Positions 8,691-22,186 of a stretch of 64,000 bases of DNA are shown piece after piece. Numbering within the stretch: the stretch's first letter is position 1; each line of letters starts with the position of its first letter. This DNA is from Myxococcus sp. RHSTA-1-4 (GTDB lineage Bacteria; Myxococcota; Myxococcia; Myxococcales; Myxococcaceae), in contig NZ_JAIQDG010000018.1 of assembly GCF_020037125.1 (NCBI RefSeq), forward strand, positions 62,001 to 126,000, written 5' to 3'. The notes under the pieces were generated by a model. The model made no database searches. It was not told the origin of the DNA and saw nothing but the letters and a program-made list of their open reading frames with translations. The position numbers and the translations under genes are program-made.

Positions 8691-8885
8691 TCAGCGCGGG
8701 GGCGCCGCCGCGCGGCCGGATGCGCGCTTCGGAGCGCGGTGTATGGGCCGCTGCTTCCCGGCGGGCTCGGCCCCCTTCGCCGCTCCGGTCCGGGGCTCAG
8801 AGGCCGCGGGACGGCGCTTCGGTTTGACGGGGCAACACGCCCACGCGAGGGGCACGGGCAGGAAATACAGCAGGAAGATGTCCAC
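8691..8885 (-). CDS. possible small membrane protein (64 aa)
   Basis: A GTG start at 8885 has GAGG 8 nt upstream and gives one hydrophobic segment at the very N-terminus (MDIFLLYFLPVPLAWACC), then a basic, Ala/Pro/Lys/Arg-rich tail. It would follow the DUF2239 gene on the same strand after 74 nt. Apart from this ORF the 8653-8959 interval shows nothing else. The tail has a composition that GC-rich noncoding DNA can mimic, so this call is weak. Confidence 0.25.
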   Translation of the reverse strand: MDIFLLYFLPVPLAWACCPVKPKRRPAASEPRTGAAKGAEPAGKQRPIHRAPKRASGRAAAPPR

Positions 8886-8959
8886 GACGGAGTCCTCGGA
8901 ATGGGGTGCGGTCCTCACGACGAGCGGCGGCGCGCGAGGGTGGCGGAGGTCCAACACCG

Positions 8960-9610
8960 CTACGGGGTGGCACGTGTCACTTCGGCCTCGTCACGGATGA
9001 CGAAGGCGACAAGCCTTTTGACGTGGTCCCGGATGTCGCGGGGCCACGGCTGGATGAGCTGGTCGAAGCGCTCGTAGTTCTTCGCGTAGAAGGCCCGGGT
9101 GGCCTCCTCGAAGCCGGGGAGGTCTCCGGCCACGGCGAGCATGAACCGGCCCGCCGCTTCCTGGGACTTCCGCGCCCGCTCGCGGCCCTGCCCGTCGCGC
9201 ATCGCCTCCTCGACGAGCCTTCGCAGCGCCGCGGACGCGCCACTCGGCTGCGCGTTGAGCCACTCCCAGTGGCGGGGCAGGAGAGAGACCTCGCGAGAGA
9301 CAACGCCCAGCTTCGGCCGCCCCGGCCCGCTCCTCCGAGGCTCCTCCGCCTCCTCCCTGGCGGCCCGTGCACGCCGCTCGGCGAGCCCACGCAGGACGTC
9401 CTCGCGAGTCCCCCGCAGGTCCGGGTGCACCGGGTAGCCCGTCGCGTCCTCGTAGATGACGACCGGAGCCACCTCGCCCCCATCCACCCACGCCTTCACC
9501 TTCAGCGCGACCTCCTCCAACCCTCCCGAGGCGATGCAGCGCGCCCCCGCGAAGGCCATGTACCCGGCCCGCGCCACCTGCCCTTCCCCCGCCTGACTGT
9601 CGTGGCTCAA
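8960..9610 (-). CDS. DUF2239 family protein
   Basis: About 216 residues. I chose the TTG at 9610 because AAGGAGG lies 4 nt upstream; the first in-frame ATG is at 9559 (MAFAGARC, where family homology begins). The family block GRPKLGVVSREVSLLPRHWEWL and following helix are present; the pattern (beta-strand, then WLNAQPSGASAALRRLVEEA) resembles a ribbon-helix-helix-like unit, which is my inference. The C-terminal part is helical. The biochemical function of DUF2239 is unknown. Its upstream region carries two strong palindromic sites, so it is likely tightly regulated, possibly by itself. Confidence 0.85.
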   Translation of the reverse strand: MSHDSQAGEGQVARAGYMAFAGARCIASGGLEEVALKVKAWVDGGEVAPVVIYEDATGYPVHPDLRGTREDVLRGLAERRARAAREEAEEPRRSGPGRPKLGVVSREVSLLPRHWEWLNAQPSGASAALRRLVEEAMRDGQGRERARKSQEAAGRFMLAVAGDLPGFEEATRAFYAKNYERFDQLIQPWPRDIRDHVKRLVAFVIRDEAEVTRATP

Positions 9611-9636
9611 GTGCCCTCCTTGCTTCGGCCGGGGCT

Positions 9637-9680
9637 TATTACCCGGGTAATATTCGGCGGTCAATATCACCCGGGTAAAA
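9637..9680 (-). promoter_or_regulatory. twin ACCCGGGT palindromes upstream of the DUF2239 gene
   Basis: TATTACCCGGGTAATA at 9637-9652 is a perfect 16-bp palindrome. A second core, ACCCGGGT at 9669-9676 in the context TATCACCCGGGTAAAA, has its centre 28 bp away. The AT-rich flanks stand out from this GC-rich genome. They sit 27-70 nt before the TTG start of the DUF2239 gene, where an operator or promoter overlap is expected. The protein that binds is not identifiable from sequence. Confidence 0.75.
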
Positions 9681-9997
9681 ACCACGAGCCTTCACGAGGG
9701 GTGGGTTCCGGCCGGGGACACGCCCCTCGTCCGAGCAGGCGCACATACCTGACAGAAGGCTGTCATCGCCGAGGCCCAGGGTAGCGCCATCGAAGCCGCT
9801 CGCCCCGACGCGCACCGCTCACCGGTGCGCCCATCCGAGCCCGGAGACAGGCCGCCATGCTCCCCTTCTTCTTTCCGCTCCTGCCCTTCGCGCTTCCCGC
9901 CGGCCGTGCGCCCATGGGTTCCCGCACGGCGCGTGCCGTAATCTCGTTGCGAGAGGCGGCACCGCGCCCGGTGCCCCCCGGACGCGCGAGGAAGATG
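9681..9997. other. intergenic region between DUF2239 gene and winged-helix gene
   Basis: Divergent promoter region. Beyond the twin palindromes to its left I see no convincing gene; the open frames here are GC-driven. A run of short hydrophobic codons at 9857-9940 is in frame with the next gene but lacks a ribosome site, so I left it out of that gene. Confidence 0.4.
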
Positions 9998-11155
9998 ATG
10001 CCTGGCCGGAAGTCAGCGACCGTGACACCGCGCACCCGGAGCCGTCCGGCCCGGGTGCTCACCCAGCGTGCCCTCAATCGCGCCCTGCTCGAGCGGCAGT
10101 GGCTGCTCCGGCGTGCGAAGCGGTCCGCGCCCGAAGCCATCGAGCACCTGGTGGGCCTGCAGGCCCAATCGCCGAACCCGCCCTACTACGGCCTGTGGAC
10201 GCGGCTGGAGGGCTTCCGGCAGGAGGAGCTGGCCACGCTGCTCCTCGAACGGCAGGTGGTGCGCATCGTGTTGATGCGAGGAACCATCCACCTGGTCACC
10301 GCTGACGACGCGCGGAGGTTGCGGCCCCTGGTGCAACCCATGATGGAGCGCACCCTGCTCGCCCATGCGACGTATGGACGGAGCATCGCGGGCCTGGACC
10401 TGGACGCGCTCGTGGCGGCGGGCCGGGCGCTGGTGGAGGAGGAGCCGCGCACCATGACGGAGCTCGGGGCGCTGCTCGCCGAGCGCTGGCCGGACCGGGA
10501 CCCGAACTCCCTTGCCCAGACCCTCCGCGGCTTCGCGCCCCTGGTCCAGGTGCCGCCGCGTGGCATCTGGGGTGTCGGCGGGCAGACGCGCTGCACCACC
10601 CTGGAGTCGTGGTTGGGCCGTCCGCTCGACTCCAGCATGTCGCTGGAGGACCTGGTCCTGCGCTACCTCGCCGCGTTCGGTCCGGCGACGGCGCAGGACG
10701 TCCAGACCTGGTCCGGCCTCACCCGGCTGAGTGAAACCCTCGAGGGGCTCCGGCCCCGCCTGCGCACCTTCCGCGACGAGCAGGGCCGCGAGCTGTTCGA
10801 CCTGCCCGATGCGCCGCGGCCCGACCCGGACACTCCGGCCCCGGTGCGCTTCCTGCCCGAGTTCGACAACGTGCTCGTCTCTCACGACGACCGCACCCGC
10901 GTCATCTCCGACGAGGACCGCAAGCGCATCGCCACCCGCAACGGCATGGTGCCCGGAGGCCTGCTCGTGGATGGCTTCTTCCGAGGCGTCTGGAAGCTCC
11001 GCCAGAGCCGGGGCACCGCCACGCTGCTCATCGAGCCGTACAAGCGGCTGTCCGCGCAGGAACGCGCCGCCGTCGAGGAGGAGGGAAAGCAACTCCTCGA
11101 CTTCGCCGCCGCCGACGCGAAGGCGCGCGACCTCCAGTTCGCCCGGTTGAAGTGA
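9998..11155 (+). CDS. winged helix DNA-binding domain protein (HTH_42 / PF06224 family)
   Basis: 385 residues from the ATG at 9998, which has GAGGA 5 nt upstream; a GTG at 10022 is an alternative. Family features are seen: LTQRALNRALLERQ at the start, HLVGLQAQSPNPPYYGLWTRL, the VRIVLMRGTIHLV block, and the C-terminal LPEFDNVLVSHDDR and VDGFFRGVW. Related proteins include AlkX/YcaQ-type DNA glycosylases, which unhook interstrand crosslinks, but the catalytic QxQ/QxD motif of YcaQ is not clear beyond QAQ, so activity is uncertain. It converges with the MocR-type gene. Confidence 0.88.
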   Translation: MPGRKSATVTPRTRSRPARVLTQRALNRALLERQWLLRRAKRSAPEAIEHLVGLQAQSPNPPYYGLWTRLEGFRQEELATLLLERQVVRIVLMRGTIHLVTADDARRLRPLVQPMMERTLLAHATYGRSIAGLDLDALVAAGRALVEEEPRTMTELGALLAERWPDRDPNSLAQTLRGFAPLVQVPPRGIWGVGGQTRCTTLESWLGRPLDSSMSLEDLVLRYLAAFGPATAQDVQTWSGLTRLSETLEGLRPRLRTFRDEQGRELFDLPDAPRPDPDTPAPVRFLPEFDNVLVSHDDRTRVISDEDRKRIATRNGMVPGGLLVDGFFRGVWKLRQSRGTATLLIEPYKRLSAQERAAVEEEGKQLLDFAAADAKARDLQFARLK

Positions 11156-20959: not shown

Positions 20960-22186
20960 ATGCTGCATCCCCTGGACTCCTCCACCGCGACCTCCACCGC
21001 AGCCGAACGACGCAGGCGCATGCTCCTGCTGGGGGGACTGTGGCTGTCCATGGTGGTGGCGCTGTTCGCCTTCCGCTCGGTGGTGATGCCGTTCGCGGGC
21101 GCCGCGCTCATCGCCTACCTCGTGCAGCCGCTGGTGGCGCGCATCACCCGGGTGAAGGTGGCGGGCCGGCCCGTGCCACGCTGGGTGGCCATCCTCCTCA
21201 TCTACGCCGGCTTCTTCGTGGGCGTGTACCTCTTCTTCGTCGCGCTGGTGCCGCAGCTCTACCTCGAGCTGGCGCGCGTCAGCCGCGACGCGGTGGCCTT
21301 CGCCAACACGCTCACCCCGGAGCACGTGCAGGAGCTCGCGCAACGCGCGGAGACGTGGCTCAGCACGCGGGGCATCCCCGTGGCCCTCTCCAACCGCGCC
21401 CTGGAGGGCGCCGACGCCGCGGCCCACAACGGGCAGTTCAGCCTCGCGCTGGACCTGGAGCAACTGCTGGGCGACTCGGTGAAGCGCGCCTCGTCCCTGG
21501 TGCAGGAGAACCTGGGCGACATCGTCAACGTGTCGCGCAGCATCGTCGCCGGGGTGGCCGCGGGCGTCTTCATGCTGTTCTTCGTGCTGATGGTGGGCGC
21601 GTTCTTCTCCATCGACGCGCAGGCCATCCGCAGCTACTTCGGCACGCTGATTCCGCACGAGTACGCGCACGACGCGCGCCAGCTCGTCGCGCGCATCGAC
21701 AGCTCGCTGGCCGGCGTGGTGCGCGGACAGGTCACCATCTGCATCGTCAACGGGGCGCTCACCTTCATCGGGCTGCTGCTGTTCGGCGTGAAGTTCGCCT
21801 TCCTGCTGGCCACCATCGCCACGCTCTTCAGCCTCATCCCCATCTTCGGCACCATCCTCAGCTCGGTGCCCATCGTCCTCATCGCGCTGGCGGACGGCTT
21901 CCAGAAGGGGCTGGCGATTCTCGCGTGGATTGTCGGCATCCACGCGCTGGAGGCGTACTTCCTCAACCCCAAAATCATGGGGCAGGCGGCGCACCTCCAC
22001 CCCGTCATCGTCGCCTTCTCCCTCATCGCCGGGGAGCGGCTCTACGGACTGGTGGGCGCGCTCTTCGCCGTCCCCGTCGCCGCCATCCTCGTGGCGTGCT
22101 TCGACTACGCGCGCCTCAAGGCCCAGCCCCGGCCCGCGGTGGCGGCCCCGGTAGCGGCGGAGCCGCCGGTGCGCTCGGAAGGTTGA
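20960..22186 (+). CDS. AI-2E family transporter / PerM-like membrane protein
   Basis: 408 residues from the ATG at 20960. Hydrophobicity matches the PF01594 layout: a pair of N-terminal helices, a long soluble loop (about 100-190), then clustered C-terminal helices including the conserved LIPIFGTILSSVP and LEAYFLNPKIMGQAAHLHP segments. Members export AI-2 or act as Na+/H+ antiporters; the substrate cannot be inferred. A short TGCAATGTTGCA inverted repeat at 20847-20858 lies in the 122-bp upstream gap. Confidence 0.92.
   Translation: MLHPLDSSTATSTAAERRRRMLLLGGLWLSMVVALFAFRSVVMPFAGAALIAYLVQPLVARITRVKVAGRPVPRWVAILLIYAGFFVGVYLFFVALVPQLYLELARVSRDAVAFANTLTPEHVQELAQRAETWLSTRGIPVALSNRALEGADAAAHNGQFSLALDLEQLLGDSVKRASSLVQENLGDIVNVSRSIVAGVAAGVFMLFFVLMVGAFFSIDAQAIRSYFGTLIPHEYAHDARQLVARIDSSLAGVVRGQVTICIVNGALTFIGLLLFGVKFAFLLATIATLFSLIPIFGTILSSVPIVLIALADGFQKGLAILAWIVGIHALEAYFLNPKIMGQAAHLHPVIVAFSLIAGERLYGLVGALFAVPVAAILVACFDYARLKAQPRPAVAAPVAAEPPVRSEG

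Follow-up and report, generated by a model that had tools for sequence, protein, structure and literature searches.

The window, meaning the whole 64,000-nucleotide stretch analysed here, carries at 8960–9610 of its minus strand a gene of the DUF2239 family (PF09998), which is proposed below to encode an autorepressor. Its frame (9607–8960) matches PF09998 with an E-value of 9e-73 and a score of 244.4 bits, above the gathering cut-off of 25, which places the protein in the family. The start is likely the TTG at 9610–9608, as judged from the Shine-Dalgarno sequence AAGGAGG at 9621–9615. The gene stands alone, with an AlkZ-like gene divergent from it and a GFA gene convergent, and the closest named relatives of the window among the matches listed are Pyxidicoccus.

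Two palindromes sit 27–70 bp upstream of the inferred TTG start. The perfect 16-bp palindrome TATTACCCGGGTAATA occupies exactly 9637–9652, and a second core, ACCCGGGT at 9669–9676, lies within TATCACCCGGGTAAAA (9665–9680), a near copy of TATTACCCGGGTAATA spaced 28 bp from it; both elements that a sequence-only reading of this DNA had singled out are thus present. From the site searches and the comparison across loci, we regard them as candidate operators, one promoter-proximal (9637–9652) and one promoter-distal (9665–9680, TTTTACCCGGGTGATA on the minus strand). Between the two lies a putative −35 box, TTGACC (9659–9664, minus strand), assigned from the sequence and from the recurrence of a similar motif at other loci. 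A putative −10 box, TAATAA (9636–9641, minus strand), follows after a 17-bp spacer and overlaps the proximal operator. On the minus strand the order is therefore TTTTACCCGGGTGATA, TTGACC, TATTACCCGGGTAATA with TAATAA at its edge, AAGGAGG and the start. The −10 assignment is approximate, TAATAA agreeing with TATAAT at only three of six positions; a scripted search preferred AATAAG at an 18-bp spacer, and a consensus promoter scanner called no promoter in window positions 8700–10100.

The full palindrome is rare. Searching the window with TATTACCCGGGTAATA at up to three mismatches returns only the sites at 9637–9652 and 9665–9680, and 100 shuffles return no match. The same search of the 11.24-Mb genome finds five places, of which only the two window sites have two mismatches or fewer, and TTACCCGGGTAA has a single occurrence genome-wide. 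Taken alone, the bare core ACCCGGGT is unremarkable, with four copies in the window against 1.51 expected and as many in 7 of 100 shuffles. In published sequence the core is found in PMC545781 as part of a TTTGACCCGGGTCAA-type site for a different regulator, and in PMC7480387 within a cloning primer. Elsewhere in the window, a lone weaker match, ATCACCCGGGTGAA, lies at 21143–21156 with three mismatches to the operator consensus. Separately, a perfect inverted repeat, TGACAGAAGGCTGTCA, lies at 9750–9765, and similar sequence recurs in the same intergenic region across the window's clade; a match of this type has a chance level of one shuffle in ten, and the repeat may belong to the divergent AlkZ-like gene.

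DUF2239 loci for comparison were gathered by protein search only, giving 30 loci from 119 related genomes (31 genomes matched) and further loci from the best 80 of 106 relatives in a species-level collection. Among the 110 loci are the copy in the window itself and two pairs of duplicates, and the loci are not independent, 47 of the 80 species-level loci being titled Bradyrhizobium. The operator consensus is TTTAYCCGGRTAAA, and a site was called where a stretch in the 150 bp before the assigned start matched at least 11 of its 14 positions. Such a site precedes 108 of the 110 DUF2239 genes and occurs in 2 of 2200 control windows taken from other parts of these loci; raising the threshold to at least 12 changes the counts to 98/110 and 0/2200. 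Loci below 80% identity behave alike (48 of 50 with a site of at least 11/14, against 4 of 1000 controls), and dinucleotide shuffles of the upstream stretches reach 11/14 in 64 of 2200 cases. The two misses are L032, where an operator pair lies farther upstream, and L058, whose best score is 10.

Because this consensus was read from the same 110 loci as those counted, tests with the core alone or with further loci are less biased. The exact core ACCCGGGT lies within 200 bp upstream of DUF2239 in 74 of the 110 loci, compared with 1 of 2200 controls. In a sample of 13 of the 24 DUF2239 plasmid records, all 13 loci score at least 11, including those from Paenibacillus, Acinetobacter and two Deinococcus plasmids. 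Loci found by profile search, scored from 200 bp upstream to 20 bp downstream of the start, reach at least 11 in 30 of 32 cases (27 of 29 among the new ones). The corresponding controls score in 24 of 1600 cases, all stemming from five loci: in one the match is the genuine site of L240, whose start had been misassigned, and in the other four the matches are isolated. Weak sites occur at L230 (scores of 10 and 9, ACCTTGGT/ACCAAGGT), L236 (10 and 10) and L058 (10). Where a genome holds two DUF2239 copies, as two genomes do (L231/L252 and L242/L253), sites are found at both. When seven loci from the window's clade are aligned, no variation is seen in 31 of the 32 operator columns, versus 28 of 165 other columns. 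The sequence-only reading had staked its proposal on the palindrome recurring upstream of orthologues, and it does so at nearly all loci of the three collections.

The sites are, moreover, usually paired. A second site lies 24–60 bp away in 47 of 50 non-redundant loci, and the spacing among these 47 is 27–29 bp in 37 and exactly 28 bp in 25. The central CCGG bases are kept in 97, 95, 96 and 97 of 97 sites, respectively. Downstream of the distal CCGG, 40 of the 47 paired loci carry TTG[AC], at a distance of exactly 10 nt in 36, and a −10-like hexamer matching at least four of six positions is found in 33 of those 40, taken as the best of three spacers and without a control; in most cases this hexamer overlaps the proximal site at its downstream edge. 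What the DNA itself shows is the existence of the operator, the way it is linked to DUF2239 and paired, and where it stands with respect to promoter-like boxes. A minority of loci are arranged more widely. In the related loci L020, L021, L023, L024, L031 and L033 the operators are 53–57 bp apart, compared with about 28 bp elsewhere, and in L020, L024 and L031 (53–55 bp) the −10-like hexamer comes before the proximal one. Wide spacing is also seen in L019 (51 bp) and L048 (52 bp, three sites). Both spacing arrangements could block RNA polymerase.

This geometry bears on the sign of the proposed control. DUF2239 might instead be an autoactivator or have a mixed role, since the end of the distal site falls immediately before the −35 box, a position also used by some activators. 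We consider this quite improbable: the proximal site overlaps the spacer and the −10-like hexamer in most paired loci, and its placement past the promoter in L020, L024 and L031 fits exclusion or a roadblock.

Site anatomy also speaks to whether a protein reads these repeats at all. As inverted repeats they might represent a transcribed RNA hairpin, and in one group of loci the proximal copy would indeed fall in the 5′ leader; the distal copy, by contrast, precedes the −35-like box. The symmetric position pair 5/10 reads C/G in 73 of the 147 sites examined, T/G in 34, C/A in 29, T/A in 6 and other combinations in 5. The halves vary independently, with C/A about as common as T/G and T/A rare, a pattern that fits half-sites read by protein rather than an RNA stem. 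T/G could be a wobble pair, but the frequent C/A is unable to pair, and the hairpin was rejected. Chance repeats were likewise discarded, given the empty shuffles, the genome-wide rarity and an enrichment far above controls (108/110 vs 2/2200); the probability left to hairpin and chance together is negligible.

A few loci hint that operator and protein may have changed together. In the Acinetobacter locus L216 both operators are altered to CCTG, and the protein block reads LQKKHW instead of LLPRHW. In genome G352 (L230) both operators are again altered (ACCAAGGT/ACCTTGGT) and the block has KG where most members have VA. L250, however, pairs one CCTG site with a standard protein block, so no conclusion is drawn, and any such covariation is anecdotal.

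The link between operator and gene was also approached from the operator side. A strict pair pattern was searched in the 119 relatives, and both sites were scored at each of the 37 places found. Nineteen are operator-like pairs, 18 of them in DUF2239-bearing genomes. The 19th, in G114, a genome with no DUF2239 profile match, precedes a DUF2239 start whose gene is cut by the contig end. By placement, 14 pairs lie at a full DUF2239 gene, one at the cut DUF2239 and four elsewhere in DUF2239-bearing genomes; the other 18 places (4 in DUF2239-positive and 14 in DUF2239-negative genomes) do not score as operators. The pairs, then, are not found mainly at unrelated genes, the second outcome that the sequence-only reading had set against itself. 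Of the 31 DUF2239-positive relatives, only 15 yield operator-like pairs with the strict pattern, an underestimate that makes the absence of pairs from the 88 other relatives a weaker control. Among the 44 genomes of the other loci, the pattern matches in 31; 30 of those loci divide into 22 with both an operator-like pair and DUF2239, 7 with neither and 1 (L174) with an operator-like pair and no DUF2239. The operator alone can find the gene, having pointed to the contig-end-cut DUF2239 that the profile search did not report.

Neighbouring genes were surveyed at 155 loci, duplicates included, 62 of which have only about 1.5 kb of flank; they vary between lineages. MATE efflux genes lie near DUF2239 at 47 of the 155, mostly in Bradyrhizobium and also at L009/L010, L115 and the Phyllobacterium loci L219 and L227. 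GST genes occur at 48, of which 47 are of the Bradyrhizobium type and divergent. A small GIY-YIG-like gene is found at 21 loci, downstream in 8 and divergent in 13 (e.g. L020, L114, L217, L219 and L231). An RPE65-like oxygenase occurs at three loci and DUF1330 also at three. Pfam searches with representatives confirmed MatE, adh_short, RPE65, GST_N, Amidase and TetR_N and gave a sub-cutoff row for DUF1330. Three GIY-YIG-like proteins had no Pfam match, the label resting on PLSDB annotation of relatives and on sub-cutoff or weak homing-endonuclease matches. On a mobilizable Paenibacillus plasmid (L213, 1756–4588), a DUF2239 gene with a strong pair (14 and 13 of 14) is followed by a DUF1330 gene, and the whole unit lies downstream of tet(L). 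AlkZ-like neighbours, as in the window, are confined to 9 of the 155 loci, two duplicate pairs among them and all within the window's clade, and an operator belonging to the divergent AlkZ-like gene was therefore rejected as a general explanation. Similarly, no conserved neighbouring regulator emerged, since none of the families queried is general and the maximum is 48 of 155 loci.

The operator pairs located away from a full DUF2239 gene point to candidate targets. In G063 an RPE65-like gene is preceded by two sites, at distances of 48 and 20 bp; this gene is 88% identical to one found 13 bp behind DUF2239 in L007. In G157 a pair stands just before a GIY-YIG-like gene whose identity is 50% to a DUF2239-divergent one in Phyllobacterium and 31% to one that follows DUF2239 in L020. 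In G061 (L147, about 1800–2100) three sites are followed by a 42-residue DUF2239 remnant, truncated so that it is without the proposed DNA-binding block, and then by an SDR gene that shares 88% identity with the SDR immediately following DUF2239 in L017; this SDR was rejected as a relocated target because it sits behind the remnant. Each of these three genomes has a full DUF2239 elsewhere.

Two operator-like pairs have no known DUF2239 tie, one before an amidase gene (G061) and one before a TetR gene (G002). These are what one would expect if some other widespread, unlinked regulator owned the operator and controlled DUF2239, and DUF2239 as binder is a prediction. We nevertheless judge an unlinked owner unlikely. 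The site travels with DUF2239 on Paenibacillus, Deinococcus and Acinetobacter plasmids, the strict-pattern search of the 119 relatives saw no operator-like pair in a genome lacking DUF2239 except that before the cut-off gene, and no queried neighbour family exceeds 48 of 155 loci.

If DUF2239 is the binder, its conserved core is the obvious place to look for the DNA-binding part. An alignment of 41 members (40 of the best-80 relatives at below 85% identity, plus the window copy) has most of its invariant columns in GRPKLGVVxREVxLLPRHWEWLNAQPGGASxxLRxLV. From the alignments and an AF2 model, a block running from GRPKLG to the second helix (9197–9322, minus strand) is proposed to contact DNA; it consists of an AT-hook-like GRP arm, a possible β strand and two helices. 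G96, R97 and P98 are invariant in 41 of 41 members, with basic neighbours and low pLDDT around them, a likeness to AT-hook and H-NS-type GRP motifs. An AT-hook consists of a GRP core flanked by basic residues within an unstructured segment and binds AT-rich minor grooves, so this likeness would explain the AT flanks of the operator. Unlike in those motifs, the GRP of DUF2239 directly precedes a conserved block that probably reads CCGG. No match to the AT-hook profile was reported for the 41 members in Pfam.

The fold of the block is less clear. The sequence-only reading had likened it to a ribbon-helix-helix (RHH) unit and looked to a structure prediction of residues 90–150. In the AF2 monomer (mean pLDDT 84.9) an N-terminal β-α part precedes helices at 111–119 and 124–160 and a helical C-terminus. 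The two helices are thus present, whereas residues 102–108, the possible strand region, have pLDDT below 50, and no convincing fold match was obtained. Neither Foldseek with the whole model (best E 1.8) nor a PDB sequence search (best E 0.24) returned anything convincing. In VIA the whole model reached at most Z 6.9, to helical proteins, a result in which the lack of RHH entries excludes nothing. The isolated block (pLDDT 66) had no Foldseek match; a monomer cannot show an intermolecular sheet. Among Pfam rows for the 41 members at E up to 5 there is no RHH family, only DUF2239 itself being matched by more than three members. A local RHH_1 profile, built from 26 of 30 fetched loci after four near-duplicates were dropped and run with background, shuffled and reversed controls, gives DUF2239 at most 0.0 bits, compared with 4.1 for the best background and 5.5 for the best shuffled sequence. 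hhalign against RHH gives a probability of 0.09%, though with strand and turn in register.

A strand followed by a helix-turn-helix is therefore visible by eye only, and DUF2239 is not recognised by the RHH sequence profile. A true RHH protein, each dimer sitting on one 8-bp ACCCGGGT much as MetJ recognises 8-bp palindromes, nonetheless retains somewhat less than an even chance; it is a claim about fold, compatible with autorepression. REVTLLP-helix-GGAS-helix resembles strand-helix-G.S-helix, and AF2 helix 111–119 and the helix from 124 onward follow an unstructured stretch. A monomer prediction would not display an intermolecular ribbon in any case. Beyond the hhalign, profile and Foldseek results, helix A seems shorter than its RHH_1 counterpart by roughly one turn. 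DUF2239 resembles MetJ, CopG and NikR in its short palindromic boxes and in the possible strand-helix-helix reading of its block. It differs from RHH repressors in going unrecognised by RHH_1 profile, hhalign and Foldseek and in its large extra N- and C-terminal parts, and from MetJ, whose boxes are contiguous, in having boxes mostly 28 bp apart.

The overall layout recalls a different class of regulator. Local repressors of the TetR/MarR type have palindromic operators over their own promoter and an efflux or detoxification gene next to them or transcribed divergently, and DUF2239 shares both the palindromes over its own promoter and such neighbours. It departs from them in that no known DNA-binding domain is reported in the 41 members, Pfam returning neither a TetR_N nor a MarR row that would assign them to those families, and in that its operator is a short CCGG core with AT flanks.

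Taken together, an operator dedicated to DUF2239 lies on the gene's own promoter and is conserved with it (108/110, 13/13 and 27/29 loci, pairs in 47/50). We consider it likely, with a probability of roughly 0.8, that DUF2239 is an autorepressor acting on the paired operator TTTAYCCGGRTAAA, often beside efflux or detoxification genes. Of the sequence-only interpretation, one part, that the site is the operator of a DNA-binding, autoregulated DUF2239, draws strong support from comparison among loci; the other, the RHH assignment, was not confirmed. We infer both that DUF2239 is the binder and that it represses. In the mechanism proposed, DUF2239 would be a one-component repressor of its own promoter, where it would bind two palindromic operator copies: the first immediately before the −35 box, the second covering the spacer and −10 region (or, in one group, situated downstream of the promoter). 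Occupancy would exclude RNA polymerase, resulting in negative autoregulation. The GRP arm would read the AT flanks and the REVxLLP block the CCGG. Promoter, operators and gene would then form a self-contained cassette present in many phyla, and genes behind or beside it (MATE pumps, GIY-YIG-like genes, the RPE65-like oxygenase, SDR) would share the same control. A small-molecule inducer presumably exists and, because many partners are export or detoxification genes, is perhaps toxic.

A more far-reaching reading is held only tentatively, namely that DUF2239 constitutes a new family of transcription factors with a new DNA-binding unit and an inducible cassette to which efflux, nuclease-like or detoxification genes are attached. 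That unit would not be RHH; it would combine a GRP minor-groove arm for the AT flanks with a near-invariant REVxLLPRHWEWL helix-turn-helix for CCGG, and sites 28 bp apart would lock the RNA polymerase promoter between them. The cassette would recur in eight phyla, as counted by record titles (those of MAGs may be wrong), and would probably be drug- or metabolite-inducible.

The GRP arm, the promoter between the sites and the efflux and detoxification neighbours go beyond what had been proposed for this locus. A search of a collection of open-licence papers for DUF2239, PF09998 and COG3644, which we take to be its COG number, found no paper. The analysis thus gives a widespread, unstudied family a function, a binding site and candidate targets, all of them predicted. 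It may bring to light inducers of MATE efflux in soil bacteria, and it offers a repressor–operator pair that might work in laboratory strains independently of host regulators.
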